Assembly: GCF_001880325.1 (NCBI RefSeq) | Contig: NZ_CP016312.1 | Span: 868,001-932,000, forward strand | DNA length: 64,000 bases | Source: Thermus brockianus | GTDB taxonomy: Bacteria; Deinococcota; Deinococci; Deinococcales; Thermaceae | Direction: 5' to 3' | Shown: in pieces, positions 4,178 through 11,362 of the stretch | Layout: each line of letters opens with the position of its first letter | Position numbering within the stretch: the stretch's first letter is position 1 | Position numbers and translations under genes: made by a program | Notes under the pieces: model-generated | Seen by the model: the letters and a program-made list of their open reading frames with translations, nothing else | What the model was told of the DNA's origin: nothing | The model's database searches: none

Positions 4178-6175
4178 TTAGCGCTTCCTCCGCTTCCGCT
4201 TCCCCGGCACGGGCTCGGGGGTCCTAAGCCCTTGGAGGTGGGCCTCGAGGGCCCGAAGCTCATCCCTAAGCCGCGCCGCCCGCTCAAAGTCCAAGGCCTC
4301 CGCCGCCTGCCACATGGCGAGTTCCAGCTCGGCGATGCGCTCCTTGAGGTCCTCTTCCGCCAACGAAGGCGCCAAGGGGGCTTCCTCGTACCCCTCCGGG
4401 CGGATCACCGCCCGCACCTCCTTCCGCACCGTCTCCGGCACGATGCCGTGCTCCCGGTTGTAGGCCTCCTGGAGGGCCCGCCGCCGATGGGTCTCGGCAA
4501 TAGCCCTCGCCATGGCCTCGGACACCTGGTCGGCGTAAAGCCACACCTCCCCCCGGGCGTTCCGCGCCGCCCGGCCGATGGTCTGGATAAGGCTTCTTTC
4601 GCTCCTTAGGAAGCCCGTCTTGTCGGCGTCCAGGATGGCCACCAGGGAAACCTCGGGGATGTCCAGGCCTTCCCGCAACAGGTTGATGCCCACCAGGCAA
4701 TCGTAGTGGCCTAGCCTAAGGTCCCGGATGAGGGCCTGGCGCTCAAAGGCGTCCAGCTCGTGGTGGAGGTAGCGGGCACGGATGCCGTGCTCCACCAGAA
4801 AGCTCGTGAGTTCCTCCGCCATGCGCACGGTGAGCACCGTGACCAGGGTGCGCTCCCCCCGCTTCGCCCTTTCCCGGATCCCCTCCATGAGATCCAGGAT
4901 CTGGTTCTCCGTGGGCTTCACCACCACCAAGGGGTCCAAAAGCCCCGTGGGGCGGATGATCTGCTCCACCACGCGGCCCGAGTGGGCGAGCTCAAAGGGT
5001 CCCGGGGTGGCGGAGACGAAGACCACCTGGGACACCCGCTCCAAGAACTCCTCAAAGCGCAAGGGGCGGTTGTCCAGGGCGCTGGGCAGGCGGAAGCCGT
5101 AGTCCACCAGGGTCTTCTTGCGGGCGTAATCCCCCCGGTACATGCCCTGGAGCTGGGGCACGGTCACGTGGGACTCGTCCAGGAAGACCAGGAAGTCCTC
5201 GGGGAAGTAGTCCAGAAGGGTGTAAGGGGGCTCCCCCGGGGCCTTGCCCGTGAAGTAGCGGGCGTAGTTCTCCACCCCCGGGCAGGTGCCCATGACCCTG
5301 AGCATCTCCAGGTCATAAAGGGTGCGTTCCTTGAGGCGCTGGGCGTAGAGGACCTCCCCCCGCTCCTCAAAGTAGCGGACCCGTTCCTCCAATTCCTTGC
5401 GGATCTCGGCCAGGATCTCCTCCATGCCCTCCGGGGAGAGGTAGTGGGTGGCGGGGAAAAGCACGAAGCCGGGAAGATCCCGAAGCCTTTCCCCGGTGAC
5501 GGGGTGGACCTGGCTGATGCGCTCCACCTCGTCGCCCCATAGCTCCACCCGGATGGGCTCGGTGTCATAGGCGGGGAAGATCTCCAGGATCTCCCCCTTG
5601 GCCCGAAAGCGCCCGGGGGCAAGGTCTATATCGTTCCGCTGGTAGCCCAGCTCTAAGAGGCGCTCCAAGAGCGCCTCCCGCGGGTAGACCGCCCCCCGCT
5701 CCACCACCAGGTTCCGCGCCCGGTACTCCCTGGGATCCCCCAGGCCGTAAATGGCGGAAACCGAGGCCACCACGATCACGTCCCGCCGGGTGAGGAGGCT
5801 TCGGGTGGTGGAGTGCCTTAAGCGCTCAATCTCGGGGTTGATGCTGGCGTCCTTCTCTATGTAGAGGTCCTTCCCCGGCACGTAGGCCTCGGGCTGGTAG
5901 TAGTCGTAGTAGCTGATGAAGTACTCCACGGCGTTCTCCGGGAAAAGCTCCCGGAACTCCGCGGCGAGCTGCGCCGCCAGGATCTTGTTGGGGGCGAGGA
6001 CCAAGGCGGGGCGGCCCAGGGCCTCTATGACCTTGGCCATGGTCACCGTCTTCCCCGTGCCCGTGGCCCCGAGGAGGGTCAGGTAGCGCTCTCCATCTCT
6101 TAAAGCTGCCACCAGCTCCCCGATGGCCTTGGGCTGGTCCCCCTTGGGTTCGGGACCCCGGTAGCGGAAGGTCAT
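4178..6175 (-). CDS. uvrB: Excinuclease ABC subunit B
   Basis: UvrB is the DNA-damage-verifying helicase of nucleotide excision repair, loaded by UvrA and followed by UvrC cleavage. Seen: Walker A GATGTGKT (36-43), the damage-probing beta-hairpin region [10 protein letters not shown] near 93, the DESH box, the helicase motif QTIGRAARN, and a C-terminal UVR coiled coil ([17 protein letters not shown]) that binds UvrC. Length of 665 aa is normal. ATG 6175 has TAAACT 6 nt upstream, so it probably has its own leaderless transcript right after the slpA terminator. The slpA-uvrB pairing is the one I recall from T. thermophilus HB8. Confidence 0.98.
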
Positions 6176-6239: not shown

Positions 6240-9080
6240 TTAGAACTTCACGGTGTAGCTCACACGGAAGGCCTTGGCCACGGTGTCCACCGTGCCCCCG
6301 AAGGGGGAGTTGGCCTGGCCCTGGCGGAGGCGGAAGTAACCGCCCGCCACAGAGAGGTCGTAGTACTTAAGCTCCCCGTAGAGGCCTTCCACAGAGCCCG
6401 AGTTGCTGCCGAAGGAAGCCGTGGGAGCACCCGTGCCACCCGGGCTGGCGAAGAGGCGGTCGCGGTCGTAGGAGAAGGCGTTCTCCCCAGCGCCCACGGT
6501 GATGAGACCCCCCGCACCCTGGGCCACGTTCCAAGCCCCGTAGATGGCCCCCGCCACGGTGAAGCTGAGGCCAGGAGCGAAGAGCTCATTCAGGGTGAGC
6601 CCAGCCCGGCCGTAGACCTCGCCCGCGCGGGCACCGCCGCCAAAGCGGGTGGAGCGGTAAGCAGCGTCGGCGCTCAAGCTTGGCTTGAAGGGCAGGGCCA
6701 AGGGGTCGGTGCTGAGCCGCACGCCCGCCTTAAGGGCGCTGTAGTCCGCATTGCCGCCGCCGGTGCCATCGTCAAAGTAGTGGAAGCGGACCCCAGGCTG
6801 AGCCTTGATGGGGCCAAGGGCCATGGGCTGGGCGAAGAAGGCGGCCACCTGGAAGTCGTTGTGGTTGCTCACGGTGAAGCGGGTGTACTGGGCCACCACG
6901 GAAAGCCCCTTGATCAGGGCATCCTCGGCGTCGGCCTGATGCTCCAAGCGGGCGCCGAAGCTGGAGGAGTAGCGCTGGGTAGGGTTGTTGAGGAAGTAAT
7001 CCGAGCCAGAATTCAAGAAGTCCCTCTGGGTACCGCCCGTGCAGCCGAAGGCGGTGGGGCTGGTGGCGTTGTCGCAAGCCCGGTTGAAGTAGCCCGTGAG
7101 GCTGAAGCCGCGGAAGAGGGAAACCTCGGCCGCAAGGCCGAAGGCGATGTCGTTGTTCGCCGAGTTGGCAGCGTCGTTGTAGCCCCGCTTGCTGTCAAGG
7201 TAAGCCTCCACCCCCACCGGGCCCACGCTGGCCTTGGCCTCCACGCCGAAGCCCCGGGTGTTGTAGCCGTAGGGGACCGTGGAGATATTCTCGCCGTAGT
7301 AGTTGGCGTCCTCGTTCTCGGACATGCTGGCCTGGCCGTCGGCGTACTCGGTGTCCACGGCCCGGTAGTTGGCGGAGAGGTTCACGGAGCCCAGGTTCAC
7401 CTCGGCCTCGCCGTAGTAGGCCCAGCTGGAGCGGTTCCTGTCAAAGTAGGCGGTGAAGGGTTCGCCGAGGCCCAGGGTCTTGGAGCTCACCCAGAGCCCG
7501 GAGAGCTTAGCAGGGCCAAGCTCCAGGCTGGCATCGGCCCCAATGGCGGAGCGGATACCCACGTTGAGGGCGTAGTTCAGGCCAAGGCTTGCGCCCTGGA
7601 GGGGCTTGAGCACCGTGCGAATGCCGAAGTAGTTGCCGTTGATGGCAGGCGCTGCGTCCGCCGGAGAGCCCGGCCCCGCCACACCCCCCACGAGGGTGAC
7701 TTCAGGGCTAAAGGGCAGGTTGGTGCCCGAGAAGGTGGCCACCACGCCCTGGCGGTAGTGGGCCACACCACCCTCAGCGTCGTTGGCTAAGAGGTAGTCG
7801 TTGAATTTGAACTTGCTAGCCACCCGGCTATAGGTCACGCTAAAGGGTTGGCCGTCCACTTGACCCTTAATCGCAACCCCGTCCAGGCGCACGGTGGGGG
7901 TGGAAACAAGGCTCGTGTCATACACACGAACCCCAAAGGTGGCCGAGGCCTCTGCCACCGCCACACCGCTAGCGGCAGGGGCGTTGTTCTTCACCCCCAA
8001 GGTAAGCGTGGCATCCCCCCGGAAGAGGTTACCGGCCCCCTCAGCCAACCCTACCCTGCTAGCAGCGTACGAAGCAGTACCTGTTTGCCCCGTAGAAAAG
8101 ACGCTCCCAGGGAAGAGGCGGTCCCAGTCAAAGGCCGTGCTGCCTTGGGTGAAGTAACGGAGGCCCGCCGTGGCCGTGAGGCTACCCGAAATGGAGTACC
8201 GCACCTTGGAGAGCTCCGCCACCTGGGACTCCAGCTTGGACACCTTCTCGGAAAGCCCCACCAGGTCGGAGCGGAGGGCGGCGGCGAACTCCTGGACGGC
8301 GGCCACGTCCTCCTTGGAGGCGAACTGCTCCAGGTCAGGGAGCTCGGCCCCACCGGAAACCATCTTCTCCAAGGCGGTCACCCGGTCCTGGAGGGCCAGC
8401 ACGTCCTGGTTGAGGAGGACGGCGAGCTCGTTCAGGGCCTGGATGGCCTGGGCGTTGGCCTCCACCTGGGTGCCGAGGGCGGAGAGGTCGCCCTTCACAC
8501 CCTCCACGTCCTGGGCCAGGGCGTCCAGCTGCTCGGCAAGCTGCTGCGCCTGGGCGAGGGCGGTGTCGGCAGCGATGGAGGCAGCCTCCACCCGGTCAGC
8601 GAGGTCCTGGAGGGCGGCGGCGTCCATGCCGGGCTCGGAGGCCGGCTGGGCCTTGAGCTCCTCAATCAGGGCCTCGAGGCGGGCGATGTCCTCCTTGGTG
8701 GCGGCGCTGTCCTCCAGGGCGGAAACCCGAACGCCCAAGGCGGCGAGCTCAGCGGCGAGCTCCTGCACGGCATTCTTAAGGGCTTCCAGGTCCTCGGAGG
8801 ACATGGCCTCCATGGTGGGGGACTCGCCCTTGGCCTTCAGCTCCTCCTCAATCTGCTGCAGGAGGCGGTAGATGATGAGGGCCGCCTGGTAGCGGGTAAG
8901 GGTCTCGTTCCCCCGGTAGGTGCCGTCGGGGAAGCCCACGATGATGCCCTTGGCCGCCAGGCTCTCCACCGCCTCCTTGGCCCAGTGCCCTGCGGGCACG
9001 TCGGAGAACTGGGCTAGACCGAAGCCCATGGAGAGCACGGTCAAGAGCCCTGCCAGAAGTACCACTAGCCTTTTCTTCAT
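6240..9080 (-). CDS. slpA: S-layer protein SlpA (SLH domain, coiled coil, outer-membrane barrel)
   Basis: Major cell-envelope protein of Thermus. From the N-terminus: a signal peptide (MKKRLVVLLAGLLTVLSMG, cut near AQFSDV), one SLH domain at about 22-80 (FSDVPAGHWAKEAVESLAAK) that anchors to pyruvylated wall polymer, a long alanine/leucine-rich coiled coil at about 85-285, then some 650 residues of alternating glycine- and aromatic-rich strands typical of a porin-like barrel, ending with a terminal aromatic in VSYTVKF. Two cysteines (CDNATS, GCTGG) may form a disulfide. ATG 9080 is chosen over GTG 9092 because the signal peptide starts there and AAGGGGG lies before it. Confidence 0.95.
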   Translation of the reverse strand: MKKRLVVLLAGLLTVLSMGFGLAQFSDVPAGHWAKEAVESLAAKGIIVGFPDGTYRGNETLTRYQAALIIYRLLQQIEEELKAKGESPTMEAMSSEDLEALKNAVQELAAELAALGVRVSALEDSAATKEDIARLEALIEELKAQPASEPGMDAAALQDLADRVEAASIAADTALAQAQQLAEQLDALAQDVEGVKGDLSALGTQVEANAQAIQALNELAVLLNQDVLALQDRVTALEKMVSGGAELPDLEQFASKEDVAAVQEFAAALRSDLVGLSEKVSKLESQVAELSKVRYSISGSLTATAGLRYFTQGSTAFDWDRLFPGSVFSTGQTGTASYAASRVGLAEGAGNLFRGDATLTLGVKNNAPAASGVAVAEASATFGVRVYDTSLVSTPTVRLDGVAIKGQVDGQPFSVTYSRVASKFKFNDYLLANDAEGGVAHYRQGVVATFSGTNLPFSPEVTLVGGVAGPGSPADAAPAINGNYFGIRTVLKPLQGASLGLNYALNVGIRSAIGADASLELGPAKLSGLWVSSKTLGLGEPFTAYFDRNRSSWAYYGEAEVNLGSVNLSANYRAVDTEYADGQASMSENEDANYYGENISTVPYGYNTRGFGVEAKASVGPVGVEAYLDSKRGYNDAANSANNDIAFGLAAEVSLFRGFSLTGYFNRACDNATSPTAFGCTGGTQRDFLNSGSDYFLNNPTQRYSSSFGARLEHQADAEDALIKGLSVVAQYTRFTVSNHNDFQVAAFFAQPMALGPIKAQPGVRFHYFDDGTGGGNADYSALKAGVRLSTDPLALPFKPSLSADAAYRSTRFGGGARAGEVYGRAGLTLNELFAPGLSFTVAGAIYGAWNVAQGAGGLITVGAGENAFSYDRDRLFASPGGTGAPTASFGSNSGSVEGLYGELKYYDLSVAGGYFRLRQGQANSPFGGTVDTVAKAFRVSYTVKF

Positions 9081-9208
9081 ATTCCCGTACACCCCCTTCA
9101 GGGATTTTGGGGAAGACGGGACGGGCGAGTTGCCGCGTTTCCTCTCCGAACCGCCTTTCCCCTAAGATGCAGGGTTAGCCAGCACAAAGGCTTTTTTTCC
9201 CTGCATCC
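9081..9208 (-). promoter_or_regulatory. Structured 5' leader of slpA
   Basis: About 128 nt separate the likely transcription start from the slpA ATG. Near its 5' end GATGCAGGG (9199-9207 read on the minus strand) pairs perfectly with CCCTGCATC (9166-9174); the loop holds an A7 run and an inner AGCC/GGCT hairpin. From the literature I recall that T. thermophilus slpA has a leader of about this length that takes part in its control. The ribosome site AAGGGGG lies near 9092-9098. Confidence 0.65.
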
Positions 9209-9214
9209 GCAGGT

Positions 9215-9244
9215 ATCATAAAAGGCTCACACAGGCCGTGTCAA
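9215..9244 (-). promoter_or_regulatory. slpA promoter
   Basis: TTGACA (9239-9244) and TATGAT (9215-9220) are 18 nt apart on the minus strand. The -35 is perfect, as expected for one of the most strongly expressed genes of the cell. Confidence 0.85.
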
Positions 9245-9263
9245 GCCCTAGCGCCTTTAGGCC

Positions 9264-9272
9264 TGCTATACT
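9264..9272 (+). promoter_or_regulatory. Extended -10 promoter of glmS
   Basis: TGCTATACT is an extended -10 element; no convincing -35 lies at the right spacing because that DNA is taken by the slpA -35. Transcription from here would give a leader of roughly 270 nt carrying the ribozyme. Confidence 0.55.
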
Positions 9273-9324
9273 CCCCCGAGGGGGGTGGGAGCCTGGCCTG
9301 AAACGGCTCTTGGGAAGGCGGGAA

Positions 9325-9490
9325 GCGCAGGGGGTCCTATAGGACCTCACGAGGTGGCGGACCCCGCAAGGGGATTACCGGCAAGGCCGGGAAAGATCGA
9401 GGAATCCGCGGATGCCGCCCGGGGTGTGCCCGCCCCGCCCGCCTGAGCAAAGCCCCTCGGGAAAGCCAGCCCCGCGAGGGGGGGACAACC
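9325..9490 (+). ncRNA. glmS ribozyme/riboswitch (glucosamine-6-phosphate activated)
   Basis: A self-cleaving RNA that cuts the glmS leader when glucosamine-6-phosphate accumulates, lowering GlmS synthesis. Blocks seen in the right order: the cleavage context A|GCGC with the scissile bond between 9324 and 9325; a P2-like hairpin GGTCC-TATA-GGACC (9333-9346); the core ACGAGGTGG (9349-9357); GATCGAGGAATCCGCGGATGCC (in 9395-9417), which fits the conserved ATCGA...CGGCGGATG core; CCCGG after it; and GGGGACAA near 9481-9488, the usual 3' end. Small GC-rich hairpins are inserted between blocks. The gene downstream is glmS. The match is by eye and the 3' boundary is approximate. Confidence 0.85.
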
Positions 9491-9547
9491 GGGGGGCAGG
9501 GCGTACCCCAAAGGGGGCACTTTGCCCTCGCTAGCAAGGAGTAAAGC

Positions 9548-11362
<1,815 letters not shown>

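Follow-up and report, generated by a model that had tools for sequence, protein, structure and literature searches.

A GC-rich glmS ribozyme in the glmS leader of Thermus, missed by the standard Rfam model

The window, a 64,000-nucleotide stretch of the Thermus brockianus genome, contains glmS and, divergent from it, the S-layer gene slpA (Table 1). The back-to-back arrangement of the two genes, pointed out in the preliminary description, is real and conserved. It is present in the Thermus loci reaching far enough and in the Thermaceae relatives, with weaker matches in the sister family f4. A good promoter match for slpA, TTGACA-18-TATGAT, lies on the minus strand at 9244-9215. The likely -10 element of glmS was not picked up by the consensus promoter scan, which needs a -35 box. 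Further upstream, UvrB (4178-6175) aligns over its full length to chain 1d2m from T. thermophilus, in keeping with a Thermus near to that species but distinct from it.

Table 1. Predicted elements of the glmS leader, with neighbouring genes and matches at other loci. Positions refer to the window unless a locus (L) is named.
Feature	Position	Strand	Remarks
slpA, S-layer protein	6240-9092	-	one SLH domain; Pfam SlpA_C and SLH; divergent neighbour, arrangement conserved
Likely glmS promoter -10, TGC-TATACT	9267-9272	+	extended -10, read by eye; TATACT recurs before the ribozyme in relatives
P0 5' strand AGGCGGG	9316-9322	+	upstream of cleavage site; pairs with 9438-9444; predicted fold, compensatory changes, permutation test
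Predicted cleavage site A(-1)/G(+1)	9324-9325	+	AGCGC in all Deinococcota and Bacillota examples compared
P2.2 5' strand C2 G3 C4, A5 bulged, G6 G7	9326-9331	+	pairs with 9406-9410
P1 hairpin, short	9332-9337 : 9342-9347	+	compensatory changes, four pairs (helix 3)
ACGAGG core block	9349-9354	+	C9350 G9351 A9352 form the first strand of P2.1; near-invariant
P2 5' strand GGCGG	9356-9360	+	pairs with 9415-9419; C-G to U-A compensatory change
Inserted hairpin H1, CCCC-GCAA-GGGG	9362-9373	+	100% paired, compensatory changes; absent from canonical ribozymes
Inserted hairpin H2, CCGGC-AAG-GCCGG	9378-9390	+	compensatory changes; GCAG-CUGC in Meiothermus-like leaders
AUCGA	9396-9400	+	U9397 C9398 G9399 form the second strand of P2.1; UCGA invariant in Thermus and sister family
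UCCGCGGAUG	9405-9414	+	P2.2 3' strand (9406-9410) and conserved GCGGAUG; invariant
P2 3' strand CCGCC	9415-9419	+	
P3 hairpin	9420-9437	+	predicted fold and covariation
P3.1 pseudoknot, 5' side GCCC	9428-9431	+	in P3 loop; pairs with 9499-9502; covariation
P0 3' strand CCCGCCU	9438-9444	+	immediately 3' of P3
P4	9452-9460 : 9489-9497	+	encloses internal loop and P4.1
P4.1, GNRA loop GCGA	9470-9481	+	predicted fold and covariation
GACAA	9484-9488	+	part of P4 internal loop; near-invariant
P3.1 pseudoknot, 3' side GGGC	9499-9502	+	covariation
Shine-Dalgarno AAGGAG of glmS	9536-9541	+	sequence reading
glmS, glutamine-fructose-6-phosphate aminotransferase	9548-11362	+	604 aa; Pfam SIS and GATase (glutamine amidotransferase) domains
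R1 match, Bacillota	L081 1297-1485		E 2.3e-8
R1 match, Bacillota	L066 1330-1480		E 1.1e-7
R1 match, Bacillota	L082 1318-1462		E 4e-5
R1 match, Bacillota	L099 1304-1462		E 2e-4
Repeat/TIGR02436 region of G049	L035 679-738, 978-1036, 1048-1437, 1441-1483		

The element in the leader spans about 9314-9505 on the forward strand, ahead of the glmS start at 9548, and the same 5' leader position is seen in the Thermus genomes. The complete architecture of the glmS ribozyme class is present in 5' to 3' order: A9324/GCGC, P1, ACGAGG, P2, the UCG of P2.1, the GCGG of P2.2, P3, the P3.1 pseudoknot, P4/P4.1 and GACAA. The GNRA-capped P4.1 (GCGA) and the GACAA block are both present in the window. The blocks named in the preliminary description were found in the place and order it gave (GCGC at 9325-9328, GCGGAUG at 9408-9414, the others as in Table 1), and its extra GC-rich hairpins correspond to H1 and H2. 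Its extent of 9325-9490 has the right place but too narrow limits, since P0 starts 5' of the cleavage site and P4 and P3.1 finish near 9502. Furthermore, the hairpin directly 3' of GCGC, there called P2, is P1, and P2 is formed by 9356-9360 with 9415-9419.

In terms of distribution, the pattern ACGAGGTGGCGG-N25..55-TCGA-N3..8-CCGCGGATGC is found exactly once per genome in all 27 Thermus genomes, whereas the reversed control contains it nowhere, so its occurrence is not due to chance. By pattern and covariance model, each of the 27 genomes has one copy only, ahead of glmS.

The Rfam model of the class, RF00234, has a gathering threshold of 37 bits. With standard cmscan settings it gives no glmS-ribozyme match across the whole 64-kb window, and permissive cmscan with E up to 10 gives none in 8000-11000 or in 9290-9547. 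There is no match at E<1 in any of the 27 Thermus genomes, and the cut-off is passed by none of 50 genomes of the same family. Four genomes of the same order exceed it, with 49.4, 45.1, 42.8 and 40.2 bits, each directly upstream of glmS. At the glmS leader of a Meiothermus-like genome E reaches 8e-5; we use this label on grounds of kinship and because one named locus, L042 (Meiothermus sp.), has the same leader. From the genomes passing RF00234, through the Meiothermus-like leaders and the sister family f4, to Thermus, the leaders change step by step while keeping the blocks and their order. We rejected RF00234 as the sole test of the class: its miss is not decisive, since relatives exceed the cut-off at this locus and are tied to Thermus by a reciprocal model. 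The RF00234 match anticipated in the preliminary description is thus absent in the window, which we read as a limit of the Rfam model: non-detection reflects where one model sets its cut-off rather than how the RNA is built. The standard model misses the Thermus leader because extra GC-rich helices hide the ribozyme.

The reciprocal covariance model, R1, was made from alignment A1, which holds 25 Thermus and nine f4 leaders. It scores 208.9 bits on the glmS leader of the window. It matches at glmS in 27 of 27 Thermus genomes, in all Meiothermus-like genomes but one, which lacks a GlmS match, in many f4 genomes and in some of f2 and f3. R1 also matches canonical Bacillota glmS leaders at the RF00234 coordinates, with 21.6-36.1 bits. 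Weak R1 matches elsewhere in the window, of at most 18.6 bits, were dismissed as GC noise, and only scores above this level count in such a GC-rich window. The GlmS protein search of genome contigs gave mainly other phyla, which served as canonical controls only, and Bacillota L099 and L081 were left out of the core-numbering comparison.

The minimum-energy fold of 9314-9505 contains P0, P1, H1, H2, P3, P4 and P4.1 together, with a shifted register of P2. This RNAfold register (9353-9359 with 9413-9419) was rejected, the pairing of 9356-9360 with 9415-9419 being the one with C-G to U-A compensation. For P2.1 we used the CGA:UCG pairing seen in crystal structures (PMC11602151, PMC7125110) instead of the hairpin inside UCGA...UCCG that the Rfam consensus draws. 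The gain of the single-sequence fold over shuffles is modest (z -2.0), as expected at 71% GC. In alignment A1, 89.7% of cells are paired versus 84.1% in shuffles, with 0 of 500 shuffles as high, and 19 pairs have both sides changed versus 10.3 in shuffles. When partners are slid by 1-3 columns, pairing falls to 35-55%. The 15 Meiothermus-like leaders reach 95.1%, versus 89.8% in shuffles and 37-48% when slid. Shuffles lose the relatedness of the sequences, and the slid control and the independent lineages therefore weigh more. P3.1 is 85% paired in Thermus and the sister family and 94% in the Meiothermus-like leaders, where it covaries between GAACCC:GGGUUC, GAGCCC:GGGCUC, GGGCCC:GGGCCC and GAAUCC:GGAUUC. 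P2.1, P2.2 and most of P0 are invariant within Thermus, so their support comes from the sister lineages.

As for variation in the periphery, some Thermus species (L018, L019, L022, L023, L026, L027, L029) have a shortened P4.1 without GNRA loop, and the L4-P1 docking of canonical glmS ribozymes must therefore be lost or replaced there. Two leaders (L136 and L137, from G020 and G021) have a hairpin-like insertion of about 100 nt inside H2.

In the published core numbering, P2.1 is CGA(28-30) with UCG(43-45) and P2.2 is 2-5 with 53-56 (PMC7125110; PMC11602151). The base triple 27-(28-45) and residues 43-45 help to form the active site and the pocket for the cofactor (PMC7125110), and the equivalent triple in B. 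subtilis is A37-(C38-G55) (PMC11602151). In the window, the three pairs of P2.1 join C9350 G9351 A9352 to U9397 C9398 G9399. Pairs 2-4:54-56 of P2.2 join C9326 G9327 C9328 to G9408 C9409 G9410 and are invariant. AGCGC stands at the predicted cleavage site in 64 Deinococcota leaders. In G003 and G004, ACGAGG has become ACGCGG and AUCGA has become AGCGA, a compensatory change of P2.1 from A-U to C-G.

Residue 5 is A and residue 53 is C in all Thermaceae and f4 leaders. The 5-53 pair cannot form there because A5 faces C53, and G-C pairs are possible at 6-53 and 7-52. Mutation A6G is known to rescue G53C about 60-fold, from which residue 5 was inferred to be bulged (PMC7125110). Read from its sequence, the Thermus P2.2 is a natural instance of the bulged-5, 6-53-paired arrangement proposed there, and natural sequences thus back what was inferred from the published mutants (PMC7125110). 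The leader of Mitsuokella (L066) has A5 together with U6-A53.

Crystal structures of canonical glmS ribozymes are those of Thermoanaerobacter tengcongensis and Bacillus anthracis. With the canonical Bacillota members of RF00234, the Thermus element shares the core (A/GCGC, ACGAGG, UCG(A), GCGGAUG and the P1-P2-P2.1-P2.2 double pseudoknot) and the periphery (P3/P3.1 pseudoknot, P4 with GACAA loop, GNRA P4.1 and position before glmS). However, the P2/P2.1 joiner is about 3 nt in the canonical form and about 36 nt in Thermus, where it forms H1 and H2. The fourth pair of P2.2 is C-G at 5-53 in the canonical form and G-C at 6-53, with A5 bulged, in Thermus. Compared with the canonical form, Thermus also has a very short P1 of six pairs, P0 across the cleavage site (none was seen in the Bacillota examples), 71% GC and no detection by RF00234. 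The f2 and f3 leaders of the same order (L154-L167) are like Thermus in the core and have P0 in a short form. They carry GCGCA with U53, and four of them exceed the RF00234 cut-off. Unlike Thermus, they have no H1/H2 pair and less GC, and those of f3 have an extra hairpin elsewhere.

P0 has seven pairs in the window, between a strand 5' of the cut and a strand following P3. To count it, P3 was located in each of 64 leaders, which gave 33 distinct strand pairs, with two 3' strands hand-set from sequence; this recount was made because MAFFT had misplaced the sister-family P3 by a single column, lowering the P0 and P3 counts in A1. P0 could lie outside the ribozyme, as chance GC complementarity or as a helix formed only after cleavage or in misfolded RNA. 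Such a coincidence concerns P0 alone and is compatible with the ribozyme assignment. It would agree with the G/C-rich strands, which pair easily, and with the fact that P0 barely varies within Thermus. It would also agree with the reduction of P0 to 3-4 contiguous pairs in some f3 and f2 and several Meiothermus-like leaders, and to two in G067 (f4). Within the Meiothermus-like group, G006 has a perfect P0, GCGAG:CUCGC, and the rest is bulged or shorter. In the Bacillota examples, inspection by eye showed no partner of this kind for the strand 5' of the cut. Against coincidence, the contiguous pairing total is 147, versus 102.9 (sd 5.9) after the 3' strands have been permuted across lineages, with none of 20000 permutations as high. 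Excluding the Meiothermus-like group it is 111 versus 92.2 (0/20000), and for the outer four positions alone 65 versus 50.3 (17/20000). The changes are also coordinated, the first pair being G-C, G-U or A-U and the fifth going from G-C to U-A or A-U. We therefore regard a P0 outside the ribozyme as unlikely.

Gene context, conserved core, covariation, reciprocal covariance models and the RF00234 matches of relatives support the assignment of the leader in the window to the glmS ribozymes, as the preliminary description had suggested from the sequence. The Thermus leader RNA is a genuine, strongly conserved member of this known class, missed by Rfam, and that it is a glmS ribozyme working by the GlcN6P mechanism proposed here has in our estimate a probability of about 0.92. 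Accumulated GlcN6P would bind a preformed pocket formed by the P2-P2.1-P2.2 double pseudoknot. It would act as acid/base cofactor, with cleavage between A9324 and G9325. The 3' part of the mRNA would bear a 5'-hydroxyl and then be degraded, probably by RNase J, and the GlmS level would drop. P0, which adjoins P3, would probably keep the scissile strand positioned when the temperature is high and would retain the short 5' product of about 45 nt after cleavage. That the RNA is catalytic, that it depends on GlcN6P, that the mRNA decays and what P0 does are inferred; homology makes cleavage with GlcN6P at high temperature a well-founded expectation. In B. subtilis, the cleaved glmS mRNA is reportedly degraded by RNase J1 (work of Collins et al. 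in 2007), and a single clear member of the RNase J family (529 bits) is encoded in the genome of the window. The leader could also be the descendant of a glmS ribozyme, no longer catalytic and serving either to structure the mRNA or as a switch that does not cleave, as the short P1 and the Thermus P4.1 forms without GNRA loop might indicate. But the cleavage dinucleotide, the residues of P2.1 and P2.2 and the GACAA loop show little or no variation, the pseudoknots are maintained by compensatory changes, and retention of AGCGC would be unexpected in a relic, and we consider this reading very improbable. An unrelated leader RNA, resembling the glmS motifs by chance and controlled by something other than GlcN6P, would accord with the missing RF00234 match in Thermus, but hardly with a graded series of homologues that leads to RF00234 members with the same gene, element order and pseudoknots; its probability is close to nil.

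For the glmS ribozyme assignment of Thermus, P0 may be an undescribed detail of the class. Tentatively, and at less than even odds, we propose that a shared P0 in the glmS ribozymes of Deinococcota clamps the scissile phosphate and retains the leader, and that P0, H1, H2 and the bulged P2.2 are an adaptation of Thermus to temperatures near 70 C. If true, the scissile phosphate would sit between two helices and the cut-off leader would remain bound through P0. P0, together with H1, H2 and the bulged P2.2, would then allow a cofactor-dependent ribozyme to work near 70 C. With P0, a glmS ribozyme would also include sequence lying 5' of its cut, which would be rare.

McCown, Roth and Breaker (RNA 2011) are said to have reported glmS variants of Deinococcus-Thermus with additional stems in the catalytic core and changes in the parts supporting it. 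These variants would resemble that of Thermus in phylum, in added core stems and in altered core-supporting parts, so this kind of variant is reportedly already known. In the other literature searched, no description of Thermus glmS ribozymes was found. All Thermus glmS genes examined carry the ribozyme, and since the curated Rfam model misses every one of these copies, the genus is incompletely annotated for riboswitches. Structural studies could also make use of the element, a glmS ribozyme that is GC-rich by nature and probably thermostable.

Lastly, two observations concern relatives of Thermus. In G049, of a genus next to Thermus, tandem repeats of the TGAAGCGG type form a long hairpin that enlarges the P1 loop. 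A gene for a four-helix-bundle protein (TIGR02436), flanked by repeats of the same type, lies between ribozyme and glmS. Repeats and gene look like a mobile element that invaded the leader, with the ribozyme core intact. In family f5 (G072-G110), most genomes have glmS without a detectable glmS ribozyme. One of them, G073, is matched by both RF00234 and R1, which suggests loss or strong divergence in the other members of f5.
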